Assembly (NCBI RefSeq): GCF_013113735.1
Contig: NZ_CP053346.1
Location: 4,850,001 to 4,914,000 of the forward strand
DNA: 64,000 nt
DNA from: Sphingomonas sp. AP4-R1
GTDB lineage: Bacteria; Pseudomonadota; Alphaproteobacteria; Sphingomonadales; Sphingomonadaceae
Reading direction: 5' to 3'
Shown here: positions 4,521 to 23,897 of the stretch, one piece after another
How the letters are laid out: each line of letters starts with the position of its first letter
Position numbering within the stretch: position 1 is the stretch's first letter
Made by a program: the position numbers and the translations under genes
The notes under the pieces: generated by a model
What the model saw: only the letters and a program-made list of their open reading frames with translations
Told to the model about the DNA's origin: nothing
Database searches by the model: none

Positions 4521-5276
4521 ATGAAGCTCGAATGCTTCCTTTATCCGGGGTGGGAGCCACGCATCCGTCCCGCCCCCCGCCGCCGGGCATGGATGGACGA
4601 GACACCGGAATCGTTCGCCTATCGCTGTCTGCCGTTGTCGATCGCCAACAGCCACGGCTGGGAGATCGCCAATCCGTTTGGTTTCTCGGCGCGATGGAAC
4701 GGAGGCTGTGCCGTTTCGGATGTCGAGATAAAGTTTGATGACTCGACACGGTCCGTAGTCGAGGCGCCCGTCTCCCTGTTCGGCGAAGGCGTGCTCACCT
4801 TTCATATCCCCGGACTGTTCAGGACCGAGCCCGGATGGAATCTGTGGGTTGGAGGGGCGCCCAATGCGGCGAAAGACGGCATAGCTCCGCTTTCAGGCAT
4901 CATCGAGACCGACTGGTCGCCGTACAGCTTCACGATGAACTGGCAGTTCACGCGCGCCGGCCATTGGATCCGCTTCGAGCCGGACGAGGCCATCGCCTTC
5001 TTTTTTCCGGTCGAGCGTAAGATGATCGAAGAGACGGTACCGAGCTTCCACGACATCGGGGATGCTCCCGAACTCCACGCGGCATTTGAGCAGTGGAGTC
5101 GCTCTCGAGATGCTTTCCATAAGCGAATGCGCGAGGCACCGCCCCGCGACCCTGCCGACAAATGGCAGAAGCTCTACTATCGTGGAGTCTGCCCTGCCGG
5201 AAATCCGGGGACTGATCATCACCAGACGAAGCTGCGCGTTCGCGACTTTTGCACGATGAGAGAGACGAAAAAGTGA
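4521..5276 (+). CDS. DUF6065-type hypothetical protein
   Basis: 251 aa, cytoplasmic, no signal peptide or membrane segment. The start is preceded by ggagcg, 12 bp after the autotransporter stop, so it is almost certainly cotranscribed. Motifs such as ANSHGWEIANPFGFSARWNG, WSPYSFTMNWQFTR and FEPDEAIAFFFPVER resemble DUF6065, a family of unknown function often found beside natural-product or iron/2OG-enzyme genes. No catalytic residues can be assigned. The C-terminal 60 residues are charged (SRSRDAFHKRMRE and similar). Its pairing with TIGR03032 and an autotransporter is suggestive of a surface-modification or export unit, but that is inference. Confidence 0.7.
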   Translation: MKLECFLYPGWEPRIRPAPRRRAWMDETPESFAYRCLPLSIANSHGWEIANPFGFSARWNGGCAVSDVEIKFDDSTRSVVEAPVSLFGEGVLTFHIPGLFRTEPGWNLWVGGAPNAAKDGIAPLSGIIETDWSPYSFTMNWQFTRAGHWIRFEPDEAIAFFFPVERKMIEETVPSFHDIGDAPELHAAFEQWSRSRDAFHKRMREAPPRDPADKWQKLYYRGVCPAGNPGTDHHQTKLRVRDFCTMRETKK

Positions 5277-5351
5277 TGCCTAGCGGCGTCGATACCGCAG
5301 CAGCGACAGCGCCTGAAGAGACTGCCAGCTAGCGCTTCCCGAGCCGGTCGA

Positions 5352-6155
5352 TCAGCCGGCAGCTGCCTTCACAAAAAGCTGTTCGAACTCACGCAGCTCT
5401 TTCCCGTTGAGATCTGAGATGGCCGTGAACTCAAGATCGCCGGCCGTCCACCGGAGGATGTTGTATCCGTCTCTGGTTTCGTCCCCAGCGGCACGCGATC
5501 CACTCGAGGTAACAGGCCGGACGAACACGTTGATGACGTGAAGACGGCGGTGATAGATAAGAGCCGCAACCTCGCGGCTCTCAATCAGGTCGACGCGTCC
5601 GCCCGCCAGCGGAAAACCGTCCTTTACGAGGTCGGGCACGGGTGGAGCGAAATCGATCTTGCCGTTGAACCAGGGTTTCACGACGTGTTTGTCGGAGGTT
5701 GCGACGTCGATCAGATGATCGGCCAAAAGCGAACGGGTGTGCGCCGCAACCAAATCGTTTCCTTGTTGGACCGTCGGCGCGCGAGGGATCGCAATCATCA
5801 GCGCAAGGCCTGCGGCAAGTCCGGTCGCAACGCCGGACGCCCAGCGCCAGCTCAGCACATGACGCGCGAAACCTGCATTCCTTGGTCGAAGGGCTACGAC
5901 GTTGGTTGGGGCGCCTTCCGAATGAAAATCGACCTCCTCCATCATAGCTAAGATGCTGCCCTTCAGGGCTCCCGGCACCGGATAGGATAATGGCTCGGCT
6001 CTCAGCGCCGTGCGAAGCGCCAGAATATGCTCATATTCGGCGCGGCACGCGCCGCACTGCCTCAGATGCGCCTCGATCGCGAGCGCGTGAGCGGCATCGA
6101 TCTCGCCATCGGCGAGCCCGTGGACCAAAAGGCTTTTGTCCGGACAACCGCTCAT
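5352..6155 (-). CDS. Anti-sigma factor with zinc-finger (ZAS-like) N-terminus
   Basis: 267 aa. The N-terminus has the zinc anti-sigma pattern H-x3-C-x2-C (EAHLRQCGACRAEYEHI, about residues 28-44), then a cytoplasmic linker, a single transmembrane helix (about 92-112, ASGVATGLAAGLALMIAI) and a roughly 150-residue extracytoplasmic domain. The gene starts at an ATGA overlapping the stop of the ECF sigma gene, so the two are translationally coupled, the standard layout of a sigma/anti-sigma pair. It should hold the sigma factor at the membrane until a periplasmic or membrane signal releases it. The signal cannot be read from sequence. Confidence 0.85.
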   Translation of the reverse strand: MSGCPDKSLLVHGLADGEIDAAHALAIEAHLRQCGACRAEYEHILALRTALRAEPLSYPVPGALKGSILAMMEEVDFHSEGAPTNVVALRPRNAGFARHVLSWRWASGVATGLAAGLALMIAIPRAPTVQQGNDLVAAHTRSLLADHLIDVATSDKHVVKPWFNGKIDFAPPVPDLVKDGFPLAGGRVDLIESREVAALIYHRRLHVINVFVRPVTSSGSRAAGDETRDGYNILRWTAGDLEFTAISDLNGKELREFEQLFVKAAAG

Positions 6156-6703: not shown

Positions 6704-7256
6704 TGCCGCTCGGACCAGCAGGCCATCACTTCGGCTCAAACAAATGGATCGGAGCCAGTGCGACCATGGCAGCAGCGGCGCGCCGAAGCGAGGCAAGAAT
6801 GTCGTTTCTCCGAGATTTGAGGACCGTTCATCTTGAAGCGACGCACAACGGCGTGACCGCGCGCCGGCGCAGAAGTCCGGAAACAACAGCAAGGCACTTG
6901 GAAGGCGCAAATAGTGAGTAAATGGGGCCACGTCGGATATGAGATCGGCGGCCGCAAGTTTATTCCCGGCGATTAAAAACAGCTCTCGCTTGGCAAGATT
7001 CTTGCGGCGCTGTCGTCTAATCGCGCCCGGCGCAAGGAGTTTTTGAGATGCCGTTGCCAGAAGCATGGTCGTCTTCGCGGTCGGCATGGGCCGCCGCATG
7101 ATGGGGCTTCGCGGAGCGATATCTCCAAGGTTCTCAGACGGCAACAGATGATCGACTGCCGACTGGCAGCGGTGACGGCGGTCTGAGGCAAGGCAGCGTA
7201 ATTGTCGTCTCTCCCGGTCAAGCAGGGTTTTTAAGGGGCAGAGCGGGATGTCCGAA

Positions 7257-7448
<192 letters not shown>

Positions 7449-9074
7449 TCACGGCGTTGCTTGCTGGCGAGCCTCTGCCAACTGCGGCCGTTCTGGGTGG
7501 TCAGGGCGCGGTGACATAGCCAGCAGCTTCTGGAAGTAGGTCCTGGCGCTCTGGCTGTTGCCGGCTCGCTTGGCCGCCTCGGCGGCACCGTACAGCGACC
7601 AGAACCGATTGGGCTCCTGAACAAGCGACGCTTCGAACGCCGCCAGCGCTTCTACCGGCTGGTTATCCTCTAATAGCATCTCGGCCAGCATCTCCCGGGC
7701 CGGCGCCAACGGTCCGGGCGTTACAGACGCCAACTGCGTCTTGTCCTCAAGGTCGGCAGCCTGGCGCATGCCCGTCAGTGCTTCGGCGATATGACCTTCT
7801 TCTAGGGAAAGGGTTGCCGCAACTTCCCGCCGCTGAATATCCGTCTGTCCTGCCCAATAGTCCTCGCCCTGCTGGGCGAGCTTATCGTGGATCTGGTCCA
7901 GCGATGAGATCGCCGTCCGCGCGGCAGCCGCGTCTTTCAAGTGCGCCGCGCCCAAGCCCCGAGCGAAGTAGGTGATCGATTCTGCGTAGGGAAACCGGCT
8001 CGGCGTCGGCTCGAGCTTGACCGCGCTTGCCCAGTCCCGGCGCTCGAGCGCGTAGCGCGCCGGGATCGCGGCGTGAGCGTAGTAGGCGGCCGAGGCCGGC
8101 GCGGCGCCGTTGGCTTTGGTGGGATCGAAGCGCGAAAACACTTGGACGGAGGCTTCGGCAAGCTGCCCGGCAGCCTTGTCCTGTCCAGTCTGTAGGTATG
8201 CGTAGATCATGTAGTCGCTGGCGTGCAGTTCGTCGGCTGGTTGTCCGGCAGCCCGCGCCGAGGTCGCCGAAGCCAGGTTGGTGTCGATCGAGGCCTGCCA
8301 GTCGCCGATCCGTGTGAAGGTGTGGGAGGGCATGTGCAGGGCGTGGGGCGTCGAGGGTGCGATCGCGCCGTAGCGCTTGGCCGCCCCGGCGGCGCGTGAC
8401 GCCAAGGCCGGCTCGTCATAGGCGTGGATGATGTAGTGAGCCAGGCCAGGATGGTCGGGATATTTGGCAAACAGGCCTTCAAGGATTGCGCCGGCCTTCA
8501 GTTGCTTGGCGTAGGTCTTGTCGGCGGGATCGGCGGCCGCTGCGAGCGCCAGGGCGTAAAAGATCCTGGCTTCGGCGTCCTTGGGATAGTCGGCGGCCAG
8601 ACGCTCCATCGCGCGTTCGTAAGCGACGGTTCGAGCGTCCTGGTCCAAGATCGCAGTCTCGGTGTAGAGGTGCGCGACCGCCTCGATATAGGCGCGTTCG
8701 CGCGAGGTCTTGGCCTTAACGGCGCGGCCGACCTGGACCGCTTCGAGGCCTTCTTTCAGCTGTAACGACGACTTGAATCCGGCAAACGGGTTGCTCCAGC
8801 TGCTCAGCGCGATTCCCCAATAAGCGATGGCGCAACTGGAGTCAGCCGCAAGCGCGGCGCGATAGCCGTCGATCGCCGGACCAAATTGGAAGGAATGCAT
8901 GAGCGCCACGGCGCGATTGAAGCGCAGCTGCGCTCCCGCGTTGCACGAGGTTTCGAAGCTGACGTTGCCAAGTCGCTCCATCGCGACATGGTCATGCCCG
9001 GCCATCTGTGCCGACGCCGGGCCTACTGGGAGCACAACCAGGAGCCATGAGGCAAGAAAGATCTTCGATCTCAT
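7449..9074 (-). CDS. Secreted TPR-repeat protein
   Basis: 541 aa with a clear Sec signal peptide (MRSKIFLASWLLVVLPVGPASAQ). The mature protein is made of helical TPR-like pairs (for example FNRAVALMHSFQFGPAIDGYRAALAADSSCAIAYWGIAL and the C-terminal MLLEDNQPVEALAAFEASLVQEPNRFWSLYGAAEAAKRAGNSQ). Between them lies a conserved HYIIHAYDEPALASRA / LHMPSHTFTRIGDW segment seen in a widespread family of hypothetical TPR proteins; the His residues in HxIIHAYD and HMPSHTF could bind metal. No function is established. It ends beside the aldo/keto reductase remnant and is divergent from the metallohydrolase gene. Confidence 0.75.
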   Translation of the reverse strand: MRSKIFLASWLLVVLPVGPASAQMAGHDHVAMERLGNVSFETSCNAGAQLRFNRAVALMHSFQFGPAIDGYRAALAADSSCAIAYWGIALSSWSNPFAGFKSSLQLKEGLEAVQVGRAVKAKTSRERAYIEAVAHLYTETAILDQDARTVAYERAMERLAADYPKDAEARIFYALALAAAADPADKTYAKQLKAGAILEGLFAKYPDHPGLAHYIIHAYDEPALASRAAGAAKRYGAIAPSTPHALHMPSHTFTRIGDWQASIDTNLASATSARAAGQPADELHASDYMIYAYLQTGQDKAAGQLAEASVQVFSRFDPTKANGAAPASAAYYAHAAIPARYALERRDWASAVKLEPTPSRFPYAESITYFARGLGAAHLKDAAAARTAISSLDQIHDKLAQQGEDYWAGQTDIQRREVAATLSLEEGHIAEALTGMRQAADLEDKTQLASVTPGPLAPAREMLAEMLLEDNQPVEALAAFEASLVQEPNRFWSLYGAAEAAKRAGNSQSARTYFQKLLAMSPRPDHPERPQLAEARQQATP

Positions 9075-11969: not shown

Positions 11970-13469
11970 TCAAAACTCCATTGCGAGTTTCTCAGTCATT
12001 TCCGCAATATTCTCAGGTGGCCACCCAGGATTCTCCGTGCCGAGCCGCAAGCCCATGGACGATAGCACCTCTTTGATCTCATTGAGAGATTTTCGTCCAA
12101 AATTCGGCATCCGGAGCATCTCCGCTTCAGTCTTTTGAACGAGATCGCCAATGAAGAGGATATTATCGTGCCTGAGACAGGTTGCAGTACGAACTGAAAG
12201 CTCCAACTCATCGATTTTTTTGAGAAGGAAGCGATTGAGCGACATGCTCACATGGTCAGGATCATCCGCTGGCAATGTATCTACCGAGGCTCTTAACCAT
12301 TTCAGTGACGGGGCAGGCTGCTGAATCGCCGTTTGTTCCACGCCGACCTTTGCTGCGCTTTCGTACAGATCGAGGTGATTTCGCAGAATTCCGGCAGATT
12401 CCGCTAGCGCCTCGCCCGGCGTGAGAGAACCGTCGGTTTCGACCGTGAGCGTCAACCTGTCATAATCGAGCTCGCTTCCGCGTCGCGTATTCTCGACTTT
12501 GTATGCGACTTGTCGGACTGGCGAAAAAAGCGCGTCTATTGGAATGAGGCCGACTGGGGCGTCCGGCGGTCGGTTTGATGCGGCAGGCAAATATCCCTTG
12601 CCGCCGGAAGCCCAGAACTCAATGCCAAGCGTAGCATTGGCATCAAGGTGGCAGAGTGCGAGCTCTGGATTGAGAATCTCTACGCCTGCTCCAGCCATAA
12701 TGTCGGCGGCCGTCACGACGCACGGACCCATCACGTCAAGTCTGAAGTGGCGCTCTTCATCGCCGTCTGCTTTGATCGCGATTTGCTTAATGTTCAAAAC
12801 AAGATCGGTCACATCCTCTCGAACGCCCGCAAGGCTTGAGAATTCATGCAGTACGCCATCAATACGTATCGCCGTTATTGCCCATCCGTTGATCGCAGAC
12901 AGAAGCACGCGTCGAAGGGCGTTCCCGAGAGTGAGGCCAAAACCGCGCTCCAAGGGCTCGGTCACGAAGGTCGCTCTGCGCTCTTTCAGTATCGACAACG
13001 ATAACTGGCTCTCGACGACTGCAGGTGCGACGACCGTCTGCTCCACCGCCGAAGTCGACGCGCTCTTGCCCAGTATGCTGGCTACGTCGCTTAATTCGTC
13101 CGGCTGATCGGCGAGAAATGCTTCGACGAGCTTTCGGACGCTCGATCCTTCCGTATAGTCTGTGCGGATGCTCTCGAGAGCGGTCCGGAGATAAAAGACG
13201 TTGCCGATCAGTAGTCCGAGCGAACGAGATTTGAATGCTGAAAGCGGGCGATCGCCGATAGCCATGTGACGTTGGCTATTGGTGTTGATGACAACGTCAT
13301 CTTCGTCGAGCTCAATCTCATCGAACCCGGTGATTACATCTCGTTGGCATCGCTGAACGTAGGCCGCCTCGTCACGATCGTCATCGGACTCGAACAACGG
13401 AATAACAAATCCGTCTCCGATCGCCGCTGGATGCAACGCGCCAGTGAGTCTATAAAAATTCTGGCTCAT
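11970..13469 (-). CDS. RNA polymerase alpha-subunit paralogue with extra N-terminal domain
   Basis: 499 aa from the ATG at 13469, chosen because it forms an ATGA overlap with the upstream gene; a start at 13496 is also open. Residues 1 to about 155 form an unrecognised domain ([19 protein letters not shown], acidic [10 protein letters not shown]). From about 160 on it is a complete alpha subunit. The alpha-NTD has [24 protein letters not shown] (Arg187 corresponds to E. coli Arg45), [48 protein letters not shown] and [16 protein letters not shown]. The alpha-CTD (about 410-499) has [51 protein letters not shown]-element contacts Arg265, Cys269, Lys298, Ser299 and Glu302 are kept (Arg427, Cys431, Lys460, Ser461, Glu464) but Asn268 is Thr430. 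It is not in the ribosomal-protein context of housekeeping rpoA. Role unknown. Confidence 0.9.
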
Positions 13470-14248
13470 ACGAGGTATTTTTCCGTCTTGAGCCACGCGC
13501 GTGTGGCGTCTCGAATCTGCCTTTGTCGTGCATCGACGTGATCGTGATCCAATTCGTATGGCACACGTTCGGCGTCTAGCTTCCCAGCAAACGCTACGAT
13601 TTCGGGCTCTTCCAACGCCGTCGATGGCCCCACGATCGCGAGGACGTTATCTGGGCGCAACGTGATCGGATCGATGAAATGCAATTCGATCGATGCCGCA
13701 CGTTGATCGTAGGTGGTCTTGTTGTTGGGGCTGCAAATCTGTTTCAAGCTGTCACTATGGAAATCTAGCTTTGATATCCTGTTGGACAAATCGCTTCGTA
13801 TCGCCATCTCGTAATAAGCGGAGTTGTCACCGAAGAACGCGCTCACGACCTGAGACGGGGAATCTTTGCCGTCGGGGAGATAGTACTCGTCGATATCTGC
13901 ATTCTCACAGATATCTTTGTAGAAAAGATCATATCCGCCGGAATCAAACGGGAGCATACTGGATGGGCAGGGAAGCTTGTTATAGTCAAGAATGAACGTG
14001 TAAAGCGCAGACCATATCGAGTTGCTCGACCTGCCATCGCTTTTCGGTCTGTAACTTGGTTTTCCGTAGAAAAAGAACGATGCCTCTTTTCCAACGATTG
14101 GGTCCAGACGCCCGGCCGCGATCGTGCCGCTCTCCATGATTCGGATGAAGCTTCGCCCAAAACATGTGTGCATGGCGGGGAGCACGGGTGTGGCCGATGC
14201 AGACGTTGTGATGAAGCTCTGAAAACGGTGCGCAGGACCTAGCGCCAT
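13466..14248 (-). CDS. Unknown partner of the RpoA-like fusion
   Basis: 260 aa from the ATG at 14248, which has AAGGATGAG about 8 bases upstream; upstream in-frame ATGs lack a spaced RBS. Its stop overlaps the ATG of the alpha-like gene (ATGA), so the two are made together. The first 70 residues ([21 protein letters not shown] then [14 protein letters not shown]) vaguely recall the beginning of ADP-ribosyltransferase-fold proteins of the DarT/DUF4433 type, which open with a His/Thr-Ser strand, an I-L-E-S-G helix and a later Tyr motif. That likeness is weak and not a call. The middle is rich in Tyr/Asp/Asn, the C-terminus in charged helix. Codon use is less GC-biased than in the flanks. Confidence 0.75.
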
Positions 14249-14513: not shown

Positions 14514-15671
14514 ATGGCAGGTACGGATCTGGACGACGAGCATCAGGATATCCCCGAGGGTACAGACGGCTCCGACCTGAGGCCAAACGAGTCCATACAG
14601 AAGATCCTGATCTCGGCGGTCGCGCGCTTCACCGGCGAATTCTCTTCGCCGAATTTGCTGATCACGCATGCGTGGCCGCCATTCCATTCGGGCCGAAGGG
14701 ACTGGTTTCGCGAGGATACGCCTCTGTCGCGCACGGCGTTCGTGCTGTCGTTCAGAACGGTGCGATCTCCGAAGCTGCCGGGCTTCGTCGTCCCGAACTA
14801 TGAACCTGCGGGCCAAATCGTAGGCGCTGTGCTCAGTGTGCTATTTGGTAAGCGCTTCGATACGCACGGGCCTATCGAGATGTCGGGTAGTTTCGGTGTT
14901 CCTGATCTTTCGGCCTTCTCGATTCCCAACAATCCGTCGCTCCCTCACATCGGTCCGAAGGTACGGGCAGACTACCCCGTTCCTCTGGAAGTCTCGGAGG
15001 CTCGTCGGATGCAGCCCCTCTTCTTGGGCGATCATCCCGACGCTGCAGCACGATCGGCGTTCATGGCCGCCGCCCGTTTCTATCAGCGGGCACTCCAGGC
15101 GATCGAGGATGATCCTGAAGTCGCGTATCTCCATCTGATCACTGCCGGCGAGATCATCGCTAACCACAAGCCCTTCGTCGAGGAGGAACACATCGATGAA
15201 CAAACCCGCGCGGCTCTCGCGCGGATCGAACGAGAAATGGATGGCGGAGCGGCATTGGCCTCGCAGCTAAGAGGAAAACTTCGCGGAATAAAGCGGAGGT
15301 TCGTCTCGGCTGTCGCCTCTTACATTGATCCAGGTTTCTTCGATCGAACCGAGGCAATTGATGGTTTTTCGGCCTTCCGGTCAGATAATTTCACCCAGCG
15401 CCTGGCGGCTGCCTATGATCTTCGCAGCAAATCCGTTCACACTGGCCGACCGTTCGGGAGCTGGATCGCGGCCAGAAGCGACAGAGGCGAGGTGCAAAGT
15501 GGCGAACCGGTTGTCGAAGATGACAGGGAGTTGGCGCGGATCCTTTACCGGGCACCGACCTTTGTGGGTCTGGAGCGCGTGCTCCGGTATGCCCTGATCG
15601 GGTTCGCGCAGGAGCTGGGCGCCGCAATGTCGAATATTGGCGTTCGCCCTGACAGTGACGACAACGGCTAG
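14514..15671 (+). CDS. HEPN-domain protein (ApeA-HEPN-like)
   Basis: 385 aa, soluble. The C-terminal half (about 175-375) is helical and carries YDLRSKSVHTG, an R-x4-H motif at Arg304/His309 with the surrounding hydrophobic helix typical of HEPN ribonucleases, particularly the ApeA-like HEPN group (R-S-x-x-V-H-x-G). The N-terminal 170 residues are an unassigned alpha/beta domain (HAWPPFHSGRRDWF, LPGFVVPNYEPAGQIVGAVLSVLFG). HEPN proteins commonly act as RNases in abortive infection. The gene stands alone, divergent from the RpoA-fusion operon, with about 420 bp free behind it. Nuclease function is inferred from the motif. Confidence 0.72.
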   Translation: MAGTDLDDEHQDIPEGTDGSDLRPNESIQKILISAVARFTGEFSSPNLLITHAWPPFHSGRRDWFREDTPLSRTAFVLSFRTVRSPKLPGFVVPNYEPAGQIVGAVLSVLFGKRFDTHGPIEMSGSFGVPDLSAFSIPNNPSLPHIGPKVRADYPVPLEVSEARRMQPLFLGDHPDAAARSAFMAAARFYQRALQAIEDDPEVAYLHLITAGEIIANHKPFVEEEHIDEQTRAALARIEREMDGGAALASQLRGKLRGIKRRFVSAVASYIDPGFFDRTEAIDGFSAFRSDNFTQRLAAAYDLRSKSVHTGRPFGSWIAARSDRGEVQSGEPVVEDDRELARILYRAPTFVGLERVLRYALIGFAQELGAAMSNIGVRPDSDDNG

Positions 15672-16096: not shown

Positions 16097-17833
16097 TTGA
16101 GCGACCGGGAAGACCTCATCGCAGCAGCGAATGCGGGCACGCTGCCCGAGCTGTTTGTCGAACGGCTGCGCCGTCACCGCACCGACGAGCTCGGCAAGGC
16201 TTTCCGCGCGACCCTGACCAAACTTCACAATGACGGCACGATCGATGTGCTGGAACCCGCGCGGCAAATGGCGACATCACCGATCAACCAGCACGACTTC
16301 TTCACGGTGATGCACGTCTATAGCGAGCTGATCCCGGCGCTCGACGCCAGCGTCCCGGACATGCTCGCCGCCGTCAAAGCCCTGTCGACGCGCGCCGGCG
16401 AGGATGTCGCCGCTGGCATGGCCAATGGCGGCTATCGGACCTGGGCCGAACAGGGCAGCCGTGCTCGCGACACGTTCGAGACAATCAACCCCGAGGACGG
16501 TGACGATAGCGCCTATGTCTTCCTGGCGTTGCAGGCGCTGGCCAAGACCGAGCCCGATACGGCGCTCGACCGCGCGATCCTCTATGTCGGCAGCAATGCC
16601 GGTCCGGCGCGGTCGGCCGCGGCCAAGGCGATCGGCACCTTCGATCTAACCGATCCCGACCGCCGTACCCGCGCTACCGACGCGCTCGCCGCCCATGCAG
16701 CGAGCGCCGACGACAACAGCCTCGGCCATATCCTCGCGGCGATCTGCGAAATCGCTAAAGCTCACCCCGACACTCACACAAAGGCCGCGGCGCTGATCGA
16801 CGCCAATATCGAACGCACCGGCGACCATGCGATCCACCAGCTATCGCTCGAACTGATGTTCCATGCCGACGAGCTACCGCCGGCAATCGTAAAGCCCCTG
16901 ACCGCGATCATGCACCGTGTTCCGATCGGCAATCGCGGCACGATCCGCGACATTGGCGCGGCAGCGGGCAAACTCGCCGACAAGAACCGCCTCGATGAAG
17001 CGCTGGCGCTGATCACGCCGTTGCTCTCACAGCATGAGGAGCTGACCTCCCTCGAGCCGCTCGGCAGCCTAAGCTATCATCTGCTACAGTTACCGCCCGA
17101 CGAACTCGCTCAAACCATCGTCATCTGGCTGCTGGCGTGCGACCCCAATCTTGGCCGCGCTACTATGGCGCTGGTCGGCGACCATCATGGCGATGCGCCG
17201 CTCATCCTCGATCCTCGCTCCGCAGCCGCCAGCCTCGACGACCCCGAGCGGCTGCTGCTTGCCCACCGGGCGATCGGCTGGCTGTTCGTCCATCCGGTCA
17301 CTGCCACGTCCCTGGTGGTCGGCCTGCTCGACGGCGCCGGCGACACTGCGCAGCGCACGATCGCCGAACTGCTGTTCGATCCGCTGCTGATCAACTTCTC
17401 GGGGTCGGTCGGCGAGTGGATCGCCGAACAGGCCAAGGCTCCGGATCATCCGTCGCAAGCCATCCTTAACGATCTCGTCACGCGACTCGAGGCCTATATC
17501 GAGGGGCTGCGCGCGCCCGGCCGGATCAAGGAGTTGCGCCCGTCCGAGCGCGAACGGCTGATCGAGAACCACCGCCAGCATGAGTCGATGCGCCAAGTCT
17601 ATAAGGCATCGAAGAAAACCTCGATTCTCGCGTCGCTCGCGACGCGGCAGGTGCTGCTCTACGGCACGCGCTCGATCAGCTATTTCAAAGGAACGGGCGG
17701 CAAGCAGCAGCGCAGCGAGATGAAGATGCACAGCTTCAGCCACAGCATCGAATCGCCGCGCCTCGACATTCTCGAGCCGTTCGATCTCGACTATATGCTG
17801 CGCGTGTTTCGCGCGATGAAAGCCGCGTCATGA
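16097..17833 (+). CDS. HEAT-like helical-repeat protein
   Basis: 578 aa starting at TTG, which follows gggggacga at good spacing; no ATG fits the homology-like N-terminus (MSDREDLIAAANAGTLPELFVERLRRHRTDELG). The body is a series of amphipathic helix pairs with Ala/Leu spacing (for example ALDRAILYVGSNAGPARSAAAKAIGTFDL) as in HEAT/ARM scaffolds. The C-terminal 100 residues are basic (SERERLIENHRQHESMRQVYKASKKTSILASLATRQ, then GTGGKQQRSEMKMHSFSHSIE). No enzymatic motif. It overlaps the next gene by ATGA, so the two products probably act together, this one perhaps as the sensor or scaffold for a nuclease-like partner. Confidence 0.7.
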   Translation: MSDREDLIAAANAGTLPELFVERLRRHRTDELGKAFRATLTKLHNDGTIDVLEPARQMATSPINQHDFFTVMHVYSELIPALDASVPDMLAAVKALSTRAGEDVAAGMANGGYRTWAEQGSRARDTFETINPEDGDDSAYVFLALQALAKTEPDTALDRAILYVGSNAGPARSAAAKAIGTFDLTDPDRRTRATDALAAHAASADDNSLGHILAAICEIAKAHPDTHTKAAALIDANIERTGDHAIHQLSLELMFHADELPPAIVKPLTAIMHRVPIGNRGTIRDIGAAAGKLADKNRLDEALALITPLLSQHEELTSLEPLGSLSYHLLQLPPDELAQTIVIWLLACDPNLGRATMALVGDHHGDAPLILDPRSAAASLDDPERLLLAHRAIGWLFVHPVTATSLVVGLLDGAGDTAQRTIAELLFDPLLINFSGSVGEWIAEQAKAPDHPSQAILNDLVTRLEAYIEGLRAPGRIKELRPSERERLIENHRQHESMRQVYKASKKTSILASLATRQVLLYGTRSISYFKGTGGKQQRSEMKMHSFSHSIESPRLDILEPFDLDYMLRVFRAMKAAS

Positions 17834-19590
17834 AACTCGTCATTCGGGAATATCTTGCGTCGCTAAAGGAGCGCGACGAACTGGATGCGGTTCTGCCCGA
17901 CCTACTGACCGAACTGGGATTCACGGTCTACTCGCGGCCGGCGCGTGGCACGCGCCAATATGGCGTCGATGTCGCCGCGGTCGGCCCCGGCCAGGATGGC
18001 ATCAGGCGCGTGCATCTGTTCTCGGTCAAGTCGGGCGACCTTGACCGCAACGAATGGAATACGGCGAGCCCGCAAAGTCTCAGACCGTCGCTGGATGAGA
18101 TTCTTGATCATTATATCGCGAGCCGCATCCCGCCCGAGTATGCGAGCCTCCCGATCGCGATCTGCCTGACCTTCGGTGGTGCGATCGACGAGCAGGTCCG
18201 CGCCGAGGTGACGGGTTATATGACCCGCAACACCACGCCCAAGATCAGCTTCGAGGAATGGAACGGTGATCGGCTGGCGCAGGTTATTCTCGACGGCATC
18301 TTGCGCGAGGAACTGCTGCCAGCACCGCAACGCAGTCATTTGCGCAAGGCCGTGGCGATGGTCGAGGAGCCCGACATCGCGCTCGACCATTTCCAGAAAC
18401 TGCTACGCGCACTCGCCGACCAGCCCGGCACGACGCCCGCAGCCCGGCTCAGCCAGGCGCGGCTTATCAACATCTGTCTGTGGATAGTGTTTGTCTGGGC
18501 GCGCGAAGCCGAGAATGTCGAAGCGCCGTACCGGGCCAGCGAACTGGCGTTGCTCGAGGTATGGCAGCTGCTGAAGACCGACATCGCCAGGACTTCGAGA
18601 GCAGGCGAGGCCGCCAGCCTCGTCCTCAACGAACTGGCCGAGCTCCATTTCCTAATCTGGGACGCGCTGTTCGAAGATAAAATCCTGCCGGCGGCCGAGA
18701 CCCGTCACGCGATCTCGACCGTGGTCGAAAGCCACGCCGCGCTCGACATCAACCTCAAGCTGTTCGATCTCATCGGCCGGCTGGCACTGCGCGGGCTGTG
18801 GCTGGCCTGGCAATTGTCGCCGGCGAGCGGCCCCGTCGTTTTCACCAACGACTATCTCAACACGCTCCCGGCCCTCATCAGCGACACCACCCGAGCGACC
18901 GTCAACAAGATCGACCGGCTGATCGAGGCGATGATGGCGATCGTCAGCAACAATCGCGCGTTACTCTCGCCGATTGGAGACTGGCAAGCGATCGACATTG
19001 GTCTCGCCTTCACGCTGCTCGCCTGCCGTCCCGGCGCGCACGGCGCGATCGATCAATGGGCCGAGGAACTCGCAAAGCACTCGATGTTCGCGTTCAAAGC
19101 GCATGGCCGCTACCCGATTACCAGCAGCTCCTATTGGGACCTAGTCGACCATCCGTCGGAGCGCAGCGACGCGTATCGCACCGCCTCTACCGAGGGCAGC
19201 ATCCTCTATCCGCTGCTGGCAATTTGGGCGGCGGCGAGAGGCGAGCAGATGCTGTTCGACGAGATCGCAAAGTTCAGCGAGGACGCCCTTGCACATTGCA
19301 CGTTCCAGACTTGGCTTCCCGACGAGGACAGCGAGGACAATCTCTATCTCAACCGCGACAGCCACGGGGCGGCGCTAGCCGGCATTCCAGTGACCGAGGG
19401 CACGCGCGACGCGCTCGATTTCATTCTCGCCGAGGCGAACACCAACAAGCATTACGACCAGCTCACGGCGGTGAAGCTCAGCCATTGGCCGATCGTGCTG
19501 ACCGCTTGCCGTGCACATCGCTTGCCGGTGCCGCCGCAAGTCTGGCGCGACCTGCTGCCCCATATCTGCCGACCAGCCCGGAGGACTTAG
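17830..19590 (+). CDS. PD-(D/E)XK-like N-terminus with long helical C-terminus
   Basis: 586 aa, coupled by ATGA to the helical-repeat gene. Residues 20-70 (LLTELGFTVYSRPARG, YGVDVAAVG, VHLFSVKSGD) follow the core of Mrr/RecB-type restriction nucleases: Asp47 and Lys67 are in place, but the acidic or Gln residue of the second motif is Ser65 (S-x-K). The domain may be a divergent nuclease or a dead DNA-binding version. The remaining 400 residues are helical without known motif (LRALADQPGTTPAARLSQARLINICLWIVFVWARE and similar). Its end overlaps the convergent exonuclease gene by 4 bases. Together with the preceding gene it makes a two-gene operon typical of uncharacterised defence modules. Confidence 0.65.
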   Translation: MKLVIREYLASLKERDELDAVLPDLLTELGFTVYSRPARGTRQYGVDVAAVGPGQDGIRRVHLFSVKSGDLDRNEWNTASPQSLRPSLDEILDHYIASRIPPEYASLPIAICLTFGGAIDEQVRAEVTGYMTRNTTPKISFEEWNGDRLAQVILDGILREELLPAPQRSHLRKAVAMVEEPDIALDHFQKLLRALADQPGTTPAARLSQARLINICLWIVFVWAREAENVEAPYRASELALLEVWQLLKTDIARTSRAGEAASLVLNELAELHFLIWDALFEDKILPAAETRHAISTVVESHAALDINLKLFDLIGRLALRGLWLAWQLSPASGPVVFTNDYLNTLPALISDTTRATVNKIDRLIEAMMAIVSNNRALLSPIGDWQAIDIGLAFTLLACRPGAHGAIDQWAEELAKHSMFAFKAHGRYPITSSSYWDLVDHPSERSDAYRTASTEGSILYPLLAIWAAARGEQMLFDEIAKFSEDALAHCTFQTWLPDEDSEDNLYLNRDSHGAALAGIPVTEGTRDALDFILAEANTNKHYDQLTAVKLSHWPIVLTACRAHRLPVPPQVWRDLLPHICRPARRT

Positions 19591-20504
19591 CCTGCCGGTA
19601 TGGCGTAGGTTATTATATTCAGGCGATCGCTGTACCGGTTCAACGCGTTCAGCTCGCAAATGCGGATTTGGGCGGACCAGCCATAGATGTCGCTTCGCAG
19701 ATAGGCCATCTCCGGGTGGAAGCCCGCTTCGTCGAGATCGATCCACCAAGCCTTGGGCCTACCGTCGCTGCCATCGGCCCACCGATAGCCACGGGCCTTG
19801 AGCAGATCCTTCTTCTCGAATGGCGCTCCATCGGCCCAACACCGCCAGCTTCGCGAGTTGGCCGATGACAAAAGCACCTTCATCGCGCTTTCCGGCCCTC
19901 CCACCGGGACGCCGCGGCTCAATATTTCGATGCCTGCGTAGCAGTCGTTCACCGCGCGGTGACCATCGTAGTAGAAACCGTGTGCCAGTCCGATCATGCT
20001 GAGCTTAGCGCTCTCAAAACCATGGGCCGCCCAAGGAATCTCAGAGAAGGAGCAGGCCCACCGGTTGTTCACCAGCTGTGGACAGAACCGCTCGACGAAG
20101 CGCCGATCGAACCCTGCATTGTGCGCGACGATAAGGCTTTCTCCAGCGAACTGGGCGGCCGCCGTGAAGTCGATCGCCTTGCCCGCCACCATATCAGGCG
20201 TGATGCCGGTCAGCCGTGTCACATCGGCGGAGATCAGCTTCTGTGGCTGGCGGAGGGCGGATCCTCCGATCTCAACCCCGGCTATGCGGCCCGAGTCCTC
20301 ATACCAGAAGGGCACCATCGCGAGTTCGATGATCTCGTCCTCGTTTGGATCCAGTCCCGTGGTCTCGACATCAAGGAACACGGCCCGCTTCATGTGTGGC
20401 ATCGGCACGAAGCCGGCGGGGGGCACCTTTAGCCGGCGAAGTACCCGGTAGTCACCGCTCGCCTCGAGCTGGGCGGCGAGCGCCTCCATCGTCGGATCGG
20501 TCAT
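19587..20504 (-). CDS. DnaQ-like 3'-5' exonuclease with extra C-terminal domain
   Basis: 305 aa from the ATG at 20504, which has gggag 9 bases upstream; an ATG at 20528 lacks an RBS. Exo I is FLDVETTGLD (Asp45, Glu47), Exo II is IVAHNAGFDRRF (Asp133), Exo III is HRAVNDCYAG (His182, Asp187), so the DEDDh active site is complete. The C-terminal 100 residues (KKDLLKARGYRWADG...KAWWIDLD) form an added domain also seen on some stand-alone exonucleases. It is the third gene of the minus-strand operon after the RT and the polymerase, and may supply in trans the proofreading or trimming activity that the truncated polymerase lacks. That cooperation is inference. Confidence 0.85.
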   Translation of the reverse strand: MTDPTMEALAAQLEASGDYRVLRRLKVPPAGFVPMPHMKRAVFLDVETTGLDPNEDEIIELAMVPFWYEDSGRIAGVEIGGSALRQPQKLISADVTRLTGITPDMVAGKAIDFTAAAQFAGESLIVAHNAGFDRRFVERFCPQLVNNRWACSFSEIPWAAHGFESAKLSMIGLAHGFYYDGHRAVNDCYAGIEILSRGVPVGGPESAMKVLLSSANSRSWRCWADGAPFEKKDLLKARGYRWADGSDGRPKAWWIDLDEAGFHPEMAYLRSDIYGWSAQIRICELNALNRYSDRLNIITYAIPAG

Positions 20505-20608
20505 GATGTTAGCTCCCTTATCCAGCATGGATGGCGGTCGAGTTTCTCAAAGCACCGGCCGATACTCCGGAAGGGCCGCCATGCATCGGCGTTGATCGAA
20601 GCATGTGC

Positions 20609-22159
20609 TCAAGCCGGTGCGAAGTCCCCGACCGACGCCTTTCCAGCGATCCGGTTTCCCAAGGTTTCCGTCATCACGCGCTCGAACGCGGCGATCACCT
20701 TTGATGGGGTATCGGAGAGACGGTGCTCGAACAACAGCGCGTCGTGCATTGGAAGCAGAATGGTGACGTCCTTCAGGCTCTCCATTTCGAGGAGCGCCTT
20801 TTTGAAGATCAGCGATCCAGTGCCCTGAATGACCTGGCTGACCGCGGAACGCCGCTCCTTGCCCGTGAGTGCGCCCGAGTTGCTCCGGGCGTAGTGATTG
20901 CCCATCTCGGTAGCGATCCGTCCCGTGCGCTGGAACTCCGCGCAAACCTCCTTTTTCCATTCCTCGTATCGGGCGAAGACCCGAAAGGCGTCCTTAGCCT
21001 TATCGCGCTCGGCCCCCAGTTCGACGGCGGCATCCACCAGTGCCTTACGGCTCATCCCATAGGCGTATGACAGGAAGAGCTGCTTGGCGGCCTTCCGGTT
21101 GCCTGTGAGCCCGAGATGGCTCCCCGCGAACAGTTCGTACATGTCCCCAGCCGCGTACAGCGTGGCGAGTTGCTGATCGCCCGAGAGGGCAGCCATGATC
21201 CCCACTTCGAACTGATCGAAGTCAACGTAGCTCAGCTCCGCGCCTTCGCGAGCGCAGATGATAGGGCGATACTTCTTGGACATGCTCTGGAGCGGCGGGT
21301 TGCGCAAGAGTATGCGCGACGTGCGAGACCCGAAGACGTCCACGATAGGGCGCGTGCGCCCGCCAGCCAAGGTCAAGGAGGAGAGCACGCGCTTGGCGGC
21401 GTCGAACTCCTCAAGGGCGAGGGTATCGCCTCCGAAATCTTCGGAATGGGGCACAAACTCCAGGACGTATCTCGTGGAAACGCCTTCAAACTCGAACCCC
21501 AAGGCGTGAAGTTTCCGTTCGATTGATGTCCGTGACGGGGTCTCGAGCGGCATGTCGTGCTTGGCCGAATAGTTTTTCAGACAGTAAAAGTAGTCGTGCT
21601 CAGCCTCGCGGCGCTTGGCCGACAGATCCGCCGCTTTAATCGTTACTCCCGCAGACATTGCCTTCTGGAGCAGGCGGTAGACGGGCATTTCAACGCTGAA
21701 AAAGCGCTCCGTTTCGCCCTTCGCGGCGGCCTGGGCGCAGAGTGTCAGGTAGAGCCTTGCGATCGCTCCCGCCGCCTTCGTGGCGATTTCGGCATCGAAC
21801 GGGATACCCCGATTGAACATTCTTTTGTACGCTGAGCAAACCTCCTCAGATGCTCCGCAGGGGCCGAGATGGGCGCTTATGTCGATCTTCTCGCGATTGA
21901 GCCGGTCGTCGGGATTGCCGCTGATCGAGATCCGCAATTCGTCAATGTCCAGCACGACTGCTGGAAGATCGCCGGTCGTATCGTAAAGCAGATCGCGGAT
22001 CATCCAGAAGTCGTGACAGACCACCGGACCGGGATAGGCGACGATCTCGACAGGGTTCGTCGCCACGAGCCGATCATGGACGAACCAATAGAAGCAGTCG
22101 GCACCTCTGCCGGTGAAATCTTTGATAAAGATGAGTAGCTTGGAAACGAAATCAATCAT
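20609..22159 (-). CDS. Truncated family A DNA polymerase
   Basis: 516 aa from the ATG at 22159, which overlaps the RT stop by 8 bases. It has only a palm/fingers/thumb-sized core, no 5' nuclease and no recognisable 3'-5' exonuclease domain (full PolA is about 930 aa). Motif A is VDFDQFEVGIMAALSGD (Asp313, Glu318 kept, Ser replaced by Asp). Motif B is RKAAKQLFLSYAYGMS (Arg, Lys, Tyr, Gly kept; Leu at the position of E. coli Phe762). Motif C is LLPMHDALLFEH, where His and the catalytic Asp473 remain but the following Glu is Ala. The first 280 residues are unassigned and may bind the RT or nucleic acid. Likely an active but specialised polymerase that works with the RT encoded just upstream. Confidence 0.88.
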   Translation of the reverse strand: MIDFVSKLLIFIKDFTGRGADCFYWFVHDRLVATNPVEIVAYPGPVVCHDFWMIRDLLYDTTGDLPAVVLDIDELRISISGNPDDRLNREKIDISAHLGPCGASEEVCSAYKRMFNRGIPFDAEIATKAAGAIARLYLTLCAQAAAKGETERFFSVEMPVYRLLQKAMSAGVTIKAADLSAKRREAEHDYFYCLKNYSAKHDMPLETPSRTSIERKLHALGFEFEGVSTRYVLEFVPHSEDFGGDTLALEEFDAAKRVLSSLTLAGGRTRPIVDVFGSRTSRILLRNPPLQSMSKKYRPIICAREGAELSYVDFDQFEVGIMAALSGDQQLATLYAAGDMYELFAGSHLGLTGNRKAAKQLFLSYAYGMSRKALVDAAVELGAERDKAKDAFRVFARYEEWKKEVCAEFQRTGRIATEMGNHYARSNSGALTGKERRSAVSQVIQGTGSLIFKKALLEMESLKDVTILLPMHDALLFEHRLSDTPSKVIAAFERVMTETLGNRIAGKASVGDFAPA

Positions 22160-23897
22160 ATTCGCTGATCTCGTCCACAAGGTTCAGGATGTCTGGTCGC
22201 TCGCGGACAGCGAAGGGAAGCCCCTCCTCGTCGTCGTAACGGCCCGCCCGGTCCCTAGTCGCTTTCAGTGCTGTCGGCACCTTTCCATAGAGCGGACGCA
22301 GCTTGTCGTCGTCCAGCACTGCAGACGAAATGAGCAGATACCGGGCGTTCTGATACGGAAGGCCTTCGAAGCCACCTATGCTTCTCTCGATCAGGCCCTT
22401 CTCGCCGACACATCGCAGCCAGATAAGTATGGCTGCCGCCTCCCCTGACTTCATGTCCTCCTGAAGTTTGCGGTCGGCAAGAGCGACGAGGCCGTCAGAT
22501 CGGTGCTTGCGCATGCCGAGAAGCAGCCAGATGTTGTAGTTCTGCCAATCGTGGATGGCACCGTCTTCGGCCAGCAGGAACGCCTCCAGTGCGGGCAAGC
22601 ACCTCCCGCCGCGATCCAGGATTGATATGAGCCGGCAGTATTGATCGGTCGTTACGGCATGGTCCGAGAGTGACGCCGAGAGTGTATCGAGGAGCGAGGT
22701 AGAGAGGGCGTCACTAACGTCGAACAGACCGGATTCCACAATCTGGGCGACACGGTTGACCGCGAACCTGAAAGAGCGAGACTGCGTTTCTCCGGCTTCG
22801 ATGCACTTGGTAAGGATTTCGAAGATGTAGGTTACGGACCGCGTGACGATCCGCCGACTCCGCGACTGCCACATCTGGTTGATCGCGGTCGTCGTGCTGT
22901 CCTGCGACGGGAAGAATTCGGTCAGGTCCTCCTGCGACGTCTCGGGGGACAGGATCGCCGTTTTGTTCGCGTTGATGTTTAGTCCCACCGTCCGGAGGAG
23001 GCGGATGAGGTCCTGCAGAGCACGTCGGGCATGGACCTCGCTATCGGCGATGACCCGGATGTCGTCGACGTAGCGGTAATAGTCATACCCCTTTGCCGCC
23101 ATCGCTCTATCGACGCTGGCAAGGAGCATGTTGGAAAGGAACGATGAAGCGTCCCGGTTCTGTGGCAGGCCATGGCTTCCGCTGAACGTCCACCGTTCGA
23201 GAAGCCTGTCGAGGGTTGCGATTGCATTCCTGATCTGCAGCTTCTCCGGTCCGGTCGCGTCGATTTCCGGAATCACTTTCTCGAGCCCTGCGACGATCTG
23301 CTCGCGCGCGATATTCTCGAAGAAGTTGCTGAGGTCGGTGACCAGCAGGAACTTGCCAGAGCGGACGAAGGTCAGCGTAACGCCTTCGAATGTGAACCAG
23401 CGATTGATCTTGTTTTTGAAGAGATACTTCCTGTTCTGGGGATTGGGCTCGTATCGGTAGCTGAGCACCCGATGACCGAGCAGCTTGTCATAGTATGGTA
23501 TCAGAAAGGTGCAGATCGACTGGTAGACAAACCGGTCGAAGAAATCGGTTTCCAGTCCATACCGTTCGCCAAAGCCCTTTTTGGGGATGTTACGAACTAC
23601 GCTGCGGGTTCCCGCGTATACGCCGTTCCACTCCTGGAGCATTGCGACGATGATCCGCTTCGCCTCCTCGGAATCGTTGAACAGATCGTCGTATTGGAGG
23701 CAGTCGAAATACCAGTCGTCGCGCATGTCCTGTCGGAGATGCTTGAGGACCAGATCGAACTGGATCGGAAAGCCAAGTGCCTGACCGTTCTGCCAGAATG
23801 CGGAGGTCAGAAAGTAGTCCTTCTCCTCCTTGTTGTCAGTCGACACTCCCGAACCGCCCCCGATTGCCCATGGATAGTTTGTATTTGATCGCTTCAT
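22152..23897 (-). CDS. Reverse transcriptase (UG/Abi-like, non-intron)
   Basis: 581 aa. RT motifs are clear: motif A FLLVTDLSNFFENI (Asp188), motif B GSHGLPQNRDASSFLSNMLL, motif C YYRYVDDIRVIA (catalytic Asp278, Asp279), motif D GLNINANKTAIL. There is no maturase X, En or integrase domain, and the last 250 residues are helical, as in the unknown-group and abortive-infection RTs used in phage defence. First gene of a minus-strand operon with the polymerase and exonuclease. No group II intron or diversity-generating repeat is visible beside it. Expected reaction: templated or untemplated DNA synthesis on RNA or protein primer; template and trigger are unknown. Confidence 0.9.
   Translation of the reverse strand: MKRSNTNYPWAIGGGSGVSTDNKEEKDYFLTSAFWQNGQALGFPIQFDLVLKHLRQDMRDDWYFDCLQYDDLFNDSEEAKRIIVAMLQEWNGVYAGTRSVVRNIPKKGFGERYGLETDFFDRFVYQSICTFLIPYYDKLLGHRVLSYRYEPNPQNRKYLFKNKINRWFTFEGVTLTFVRSGKFLLVTDLSNFFENIAREQIVAGLEKVIPEIDATGPEKLQIRNAIATLDRLLERWTFSGSHGLPQNRDASSFLSNMLLASVDRAMAAKGYDYYRYVDDIRVIADSEVHARRALQDLIRLLRTVGLNINANKTAILSPETSQEDLTEFFPSQDSTTTAINQMWQSRSRRIVTRSVTYIFEILTKCIEAGETQSRSFRFAVNRVAQIVESGLFDVSDALSTSLLDTLSASLSDHAVTTDQYCRLISILDRGGRCLPALEAFLLAEDGAIHDWQNYNIWLLLGMRKHRSDGLVALADRKLQEDMKSGEAAAILIWLRCVGEKGLIERSIGGFEGLPYQNARYLLISSAVLDDDKLRPLYGKVPTALKATRDRAGRYDDEEGLPFAVRERPDILNLVDEISEYD

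Follow-up and report, generated by a model that had tools for sequence, protein, structure and literature searches.

Why would a bacterium carry, besides its ordinary gene for the alpha subunit of RNA polymerase, a second alpha joined to an N-terminal extension and overlapping a gene of no known family? The question arises in Sphingomonas sp. AP4-R1, within a stretch of 64,000 nucleotides (contig NZ_CP053346.1, positions 4,850,001 to 4,914,000; the window), where the alpha-carrying gene, here called B, and its partner, here called A, lie together on the minus strand. Our analysis of the window and of related loci makes it fairly probable that A and B together are a phage defence of two genes, similar to a toxin-antitoxin system, in which an altered copy of a host protein serves as an integrated decoy. 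We favor this reading because of the DarT-like fold of A, the near-strict pairing of the two genes, the swapped C-terminal domains of B proteins, the altered copies of host-lineage proteins among them, the defence genes nearby, and precedents among phages. The parts of the locus are as follows.

13466..14248, minus strand: gene A, predicted DarT-fold ADP-ribosyltransferase and proposed effector (260 aa; AlphaFold and Foldseek)
11970..13469, minus strand: gene B, proposed sensor made of an N-domain and an RNA polymerase alpha copy (499 aa including Met1)
13005..13469, minus strand: N-domain of B, residues 1-155, common to other B proteins (profile match)
12363..12986, minus strand: alpha N-terminal domain (NTD) copy, residues 162-369 (249-bit match to 7ye1 alpha)
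11985..12257, minus strand: alpha C-terminal domain (CTD) copy, residues 405-495 (124-bit match)
13466..13469, minus strand: ATGA shared by the stop of A and the start of B (sequence)

An extra RNA polymerase alpha behind a conserved domain

A preliminary description of the locus had noted a full alpha subunit with an extra N-terminal domain of about 155 residues, and the profile searches bear this out. The Pfam families RNA_pol_L, RNA_pol_A_bac, and RNA_pol_A_CTD each match B above cut-off downstream of the extension, the NCBIfam RpoA model NF003513 matches at 1e-125, and the RpoA domain set (NTD, insert, and CTD) is complete. The extension had been taken for an unknown extra domain; it is present, but it is the part that is conserved across a large family, matched in the window by a profile built without the window's own sequence (E 6.3e-13). 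This profile leads us to reject a chance fusion, and chance is excluded as the source of the B architecture because of the match scores and the recurrence of the gene pair. Since an ordinary rpoA (355 aa) lies elsewhere in the genome, at C1:796 kb, the alpha in B is an extra copy rather than the sole rpoA or an oddity of annotation. Such extra copies are rare: of 59 genomes of the family, the window's alone has two PF01000 matches, and among 115 of the class three do, namely the window's, one with a second frame of 242 aa, and one in which a single frame was matched in two pieces.

In the AlphaFold model of B, residues 1-120 have a mean predicted local distance difference test (pLDDT) score of 87 to 96 per ten residues and form eight strands followed by helices. 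The alpha part is poorly modeled (261 of 499 residues with pLDDT below 50) because its alignment held a single ordinary alpha. A sequence-profile search of the PDB with the N-domain returned no convincing match, PADLOC 2.0.0 matched B to PglW only, at E 0.015 and short of membership in that model, and no macrodomain or NADAR family of Pfam matched the window B.

A predicted ADP-ribosyltransferase partner

The coupling of B by ATGA to a 260-aa partner of no known family, part of the same description, is confirmed by the overlap and by blank searches of A against Pfam (E 1), NCBIfam (0.01), and PADLOC (0.1). The AlphaFold model of A has a pLDDT of 91, and its best structural match, by Foldseek and by VIA, is DarT; a DarT ADP-ribosyltransferase (ART) fold is thus predicted for A, in keeping with the likeness to ADP-ribosyltransferases suspected earlier. 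A sequence-profile search of the PDB with A gave no convincing match, and neither A nor the window B has a RelA/SpoT match in Pfam. The window A keeps H27, F60, D102, G104, Y145, D181, R183, E188, and P208, all of which are constant in both A alignments. All 32 aligned A proteins have E188, and we infer that it is equivalent to E152 or E160 of DarT.

A recurrent pair of genes

The profile of A matches 7 of 385 genomes of the class and 12 of 398 genomes of the phylum, one of the latter being a contig-end fragment (L041) that was left out. A single-sequence search of the window's own family gave 4 of 249 genomes, one of them (L008) judged false by eye, its long frame holding an unrelated protein, and also left out; within the genus, A is present in 2 of 7 genomes. 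A collection of one genome per species (84,980 species) yielded 38 pattern matches, of which 32 are relatives. Nine plasmid records were recovered by tblastn with A, each with an overlapping downstream gene. Four viral contigs carry A; the window's A as query found no relative among the viral contigs, and the phage collection had no match to A when queried with the A protein of the window or of L044.

After removal of duplicates (L049, equal to L044; L051, equal to L029; and L017, a near-copy of L014), 59 A loci remained, and at 58 of them an adjacent B carries the common N-domain. The N-domain profile was built from 51 of these 58 B proteins; the seven outside the build (window, L064, and L083 to L087) match it as well, and two later plasmid loci likewise have an N-domain B beside A. 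Among the 385 class genomes, the N-domain profile matches exactly the seven that have A and none of the other 378. Because six of these seven had contributed rows to the profile, with G298 recovered without having been used, this result mainly says that the N-domain is not found without A. The pairing of A and B is near-strict. A 4-base overlap is listed at 18 of the 58 paired loci, on the basis of longest-frame starts.

Three loci have further peculiarities. At L079 (7663-8428), A stands without B and the next open reading frame (ORF) is transposase-like by eye; at L053 and L072, A is split over two frames. At L009, the ORF preceding A (5101-5850) is DUF2971-like by eye.

Interchangeable C-terminal domains

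The C-terminal parts of 57 B proteins (L064, with a B frame of 110 aa, was not among them) fall into 32 unrelated clusters by blastp at E 1e-6, 21 of them with a single member. In 13 clusters, a scanned member has a Pfam family above cut-off.

Window: RpoA
L029: RelA/SpoT
L031: UvrD-like helicase
L032: Eco57I methylase
L045, clustered with L046 and L047: nSTAND5 NTPase
L063: FtsZ
L075: DnaA
L069: DnaA-like ATPase
L068: DnaA N-domain
L062: Lys/Orn monooxygenase
L074: SNF2 helicase
L065: HsdR
L083, a viral contig, 6756-9002: FGE (FGE-sulfatase), E 4.3e-56

Ten further B proteins scanned with Pfam had nothing above cut-off, and no convincing match came from sequence-profile searches of the PDB with three of the orphan C-clusters. 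By eye, L009, L018, and L027 had seemed FtsZ-like in their C-parts, but they were dropped as candidates when Pfam returned nothing above its cut-offs.

The A protein of L029, whose B carries RelA/SpoT, is 60% to 63% identical to those of L044, L050, L052, and L054, yet the C-domains are unrelated. L062 and L075 share 42% identity in A and 37% in the N-domain, with a monooxygenase at the one and DnaA at the other. Since close A proteins and N-domains are accompanied by unrelated C-parts, what varies is the C-domain, which is swapped while effector and hub stay constant. Alpha is one of many interchangeable C-domains, which goes beyond what the preliminary description had seen in it.

The swapping bears on the idea that B is a substrate-mimic antitoxin, in which the target of A would be the very protein copied in B and the C-domain would soak up the toxin as a sacrificial substrate. 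RpoA, FtsZ, and DnaA are essential and hence good toxin targets, and the strict pairing of A with B is what such an antitoxin would lead one to expect. However, the exchange of C-domains between close A proteins weakens this explanation, a toxin would hardly be expected to target HsdR, STAND NTPase, monooxygenase, or FGE, and DarT, the nearest fold, modifies DNA bases (PMC11543638). We regard it as unlikely.

Altered copies of host proteins

The window alpha is 62.7% identical to RpoA of its own genome, compared with 77% to 87% for 29 other RpoA of the family. In a tree of 61 rows, with 30 RpoA from 59 family genomes and 30 from 108 class genomes with a match (those with loci given), it falls among the RpoA of its own family (26-row set, 100/97); its branch is seven times as long as the median, which leaves its exact place unsure. 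It keeps 96 and changes 16 of the 112 near-invariant columns, defined as aligned columns in which at most one of the 60 family and class RpoA deviates. The changes include 5 of 8 such columns in the last helix of the alpha NTD and 5 of 17 in the DNA-contact region of the CTD, both regions, to which the P values refer, having been picked after inspection of the data. Within the CTD copy, Arg427 (codon 12189-12191) is kept; we take it to be R265 of E. coli, the arginine modified by T4 enzymes. An Asn is replaced by Thr430 (codon 12180-12182) at what is presumably E. coli position N268.

In Magnetospirillum aberrantis (L075, 5491-9534), the native dnaA, A, and a B carrying DnaA are consecutive, which suggests that the copy was captured from the neighboring gene. 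This copy is 87.7% identical (385/439) to native DnaA; across its last 151 residues (native 315 onward), it differs only by D363N, D431A, and H432P, and further upstream a Gly of the Walker A motif is changed (G175S). We take D431 and H432 to be the pair that contacts the DnaA box (D433 and H434 in E. coli). The FtsZ copy of L063 is 75.3% identical (292/388) to FtsZ of the same genome and has GEGGGN for GGGGGN and GALGKP for GAGSKP, both presumably in nucleotide-binding loops. The RelA/SpoT copy of L029 is 34.4% identical (162/471) to a paralogue in its own genome and has no synthetase match in Pfam; by our assignment of the motifs, the ED pair is gone from its hydrolase HD motif, as are residues from two synthetase motifs. 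Judged by these alignments, several copies derive from the host lineage and are altered at apparent functional sites.

These alterations argue against a guard, in which the C-domain would still work as, or mimic, the host protein and sense a perturbation of the host, such as DNA damage or a change in alarmone, rather than a bound phage protein. The ATPase motifs retained by eye in the HsdR, SNF2, and UvrD copies would suit a guard, but the hydrolase and synthetase motifs are lost in the RelA/SpoT copy and the DnaA copy is altered in both Walker A and DNA-contact residues; we consider a guard a shade less likely than a substrate mimic.

Less likely again is a tether or targeting subunit, whose C-domain would enter host complexes, here RNA polymerase, and bring A to a chosen place. 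The identity of the window alpha to host RpoA and its many conserved near-invariant columns are in its favor. It is weakened because the alpha and DnaA copies are altered: the alpha has changed near-invariant columns in its last NTD helix and in the DNA-contact region of its CTD, and the DnaA copy is without the box-contact pair, the opposite of what a tether requires. As a general role, the spare, replacement, or tethering alpha considered in the preliminary description is not supported because FtsZ, DnaA, RelA/SpoT, HsdR, and others fill the same slot and the alpha is changed at near-invariant positions.

Some of the copied proteins are known to be attacked by phages. The enzymes Alt, ModA, and ModB of T4 place ADP-ribose on alpha, and phage Rac brings about its cleavage (PMC7552054). 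T7 Gp0.4 binds FtsZ, and the Gp0.4-FtsZ complex triggers CapRel-Ebc (PMC13423816). The C-domains that copy phage targets in print are thus RpoA and FtsZ.

Genomic setting

Two defence systems lie within 10 kb of the A-B pair in the window, in agreement with the earlier remark that the extra alpha is near defence genes.

16097..19590, plus strand: Olokun OloA and OloB (PADLOC E 4.6e-115 and 1.8e-207)
19587..23897, minus strand: DEDDh exonuclease, reverse transcriptase-associated PolA, and UG9-type reverse transcriptase (DRT) (PADLOC 2.8e-25, 2.2e-173, and 4.9e-240)

Divergent from A, an ORF of 385 aa (14514-15671, plus strand) has a HEPN-like R-x-x-x-x-H motif by eye; it has no Pfam match above cut-off and no PADLOC match. 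At L063 (9486-13738), HamA and a helicase (Hachiman-like) directly follow the FtsZ-carrying pair, and at the HsdR locus (L065), a UvrD helicase and a Fic gene precede it. A scan of the flanks with PADLOC at 1e-15, covering 91 of 192 candidate large ORFs at 26 loci, lists matches that include Gabija, Druantia III, Hachiman, Lamassu, and restriction models.

Several A-B loci are on plasmids. This location and the copy that adjoins its source gene (L075) would fit an addiction module with no antiviral role, in which B would be an antitoxin, its C-terminus drifting as random fusions occur, and the host-like copies would be accidents of recombination. This is made very improbable by the many different host proteins of which long stretches are copied in frame, by the changes at functional sites in several of these copies, and by the defence genes near several loci.

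How the pair may work

In the phage defence with an integrated decoy that we propose, A, once free, would stop growth or damage nucleic acid, as its predicted fold suggests, and B would keep A inactive through the conserved N-domain. The host-derived alpha copy, fused in B and altered in its residues, would be the decoy, open to recognition by phage proteins. If a phage protein bound, modified, or cleaved the decoy, B would be changed or destabilized and A freed, and the infected cell would shut down. A swap of the C-domain, as seen between loci, would then redirect the effector, itself unchanged, against a different class of phage attack. The preliminary description had raised a decoy among several roles for the alpha; the decoy is supported, and the earlier interpretation as a whole is partly supported.

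Several observations weigh against this proposal. Although the A-B pair recurs, alpha as a C-domain is seen at one locus, the window's, and its role thus has no backing from recurrence; in the second pair known from the genus (L087), the C-domain is unrelated to alpha. The window A has Phe58 where every other aligned row has Tyr, and it also departs at C48 (Leu), R63 (Lys; the column is mostly Arg), and P82 (Leu), because of which it may be weak or altered. For the N-domain, no fold was identified, the rows listed by fold searches with the B model being RNA polymerase alpha chains. In 19 of the 32 C-part clusters, each with at least one member scanned, no family exceeded the Pfam cut-off; the HsdR, SNF2, and UvrD copies have the intact ATPase motifs mentioned above; and we know of no phage that targets a monooxygenase or FGE. 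The flank scan had no control set and no per-locus count, and each PADLOC model listed there was matched by one or two ORFs.

Relation to known systems

Plant nucleotide-binding leucine-rich repeat (NLR) receptors include integrated decoys, in which a conserved core is fused to interchangeable copies of pathogen targets. The constant core with swapped domains is found here as well (58 of 59 loci with the N-domain; 32 clusters from 57 C-parts), whereas the proteins, the effector, and the fold are unrelated and the kingdom is another. The guard concept is treated in a 2025 review of effector-triggered immunity (PMC12409349), the accessible part of which mentions no such receptor.

Among bacterial systems, DarTG is antiviral (PMC11543638), and like the A-B pair it is a two-gene, toxin-antitoxin-like system; DarT is the best structural match of A, which has a constant Glu. 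In contrast to DarTG, A has no Pfam match, and the scanned B proteins, in the window and beyond it, have no macrodomain (DarG) or NADAR match in Pfam and carry swapped copies of host proteins instead. CapRel resembles the proposed system in that the signal is phage attack on an essential host protein (PMC13423816). However, CapRel-Ebc senses the host's own FtsZ with Gp0.4, whereas here the copy is built into the sensor, and its toxin is alarmone-synthetase-like and fused to the antitoxin, whereas the partner here is of predicted ART fold. In CmdTAC, an ART effector is released once the sensor recognizes a phage protein, as proposed here, but the sensor is a SecB-like chaperone, and the accessible text describes no host-protein copies (PMC11618068). 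Inactive nuclease domains in BREX-related helicases have been proposed as decoys for phage inhibitors (PMC12839542), which is likewise an inactive copy of an inhibitor's target inside a defence protein; there, the copy is of a defence nuclease domain, without the range of exchangeable domains, housekeeping proteins among them, found here, and the part of that paper at hand describes no ART partner.

The literature search, in which preprints and subscription papers were thinly covered, found no description of the A-B pair in the titles or abstract openings of the matches listed. We found no known kind of system that joins a partner of ART fold to a constant hub with exchangeable copies of host proteins.

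Implications

Taken as a family, these loci have a slightly better than even chance of being bacterial immune receptors with integrated decoys, in which a DarT-fold ART effector and a conserved hub are combined with grafted, altered copies of phage-targeted proteins (RNA polymerase alpha, FtsZ, DnaA, RelA/SpoT, and restriction enzymes), sometimes taken from the adjacent gene, so that the same alarm is pointed at new phage attacks. If this is true, bacteria have evolved the same trick as plant NLR integrated decoys, a copy of the pathogen's target placed inside the alarm. Read in this way, the C-domains would list host proteins that phages attack in environmental bacteria, including RpoA, FtsZ, DnaA, and RelA/SpoT, and the clusters with no recognized family would point to further ones. 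Binders of each decoy would offer a direct route to new phage inhibitors. The sensor itself would be modular, its specificity altered by the swap of one domain.
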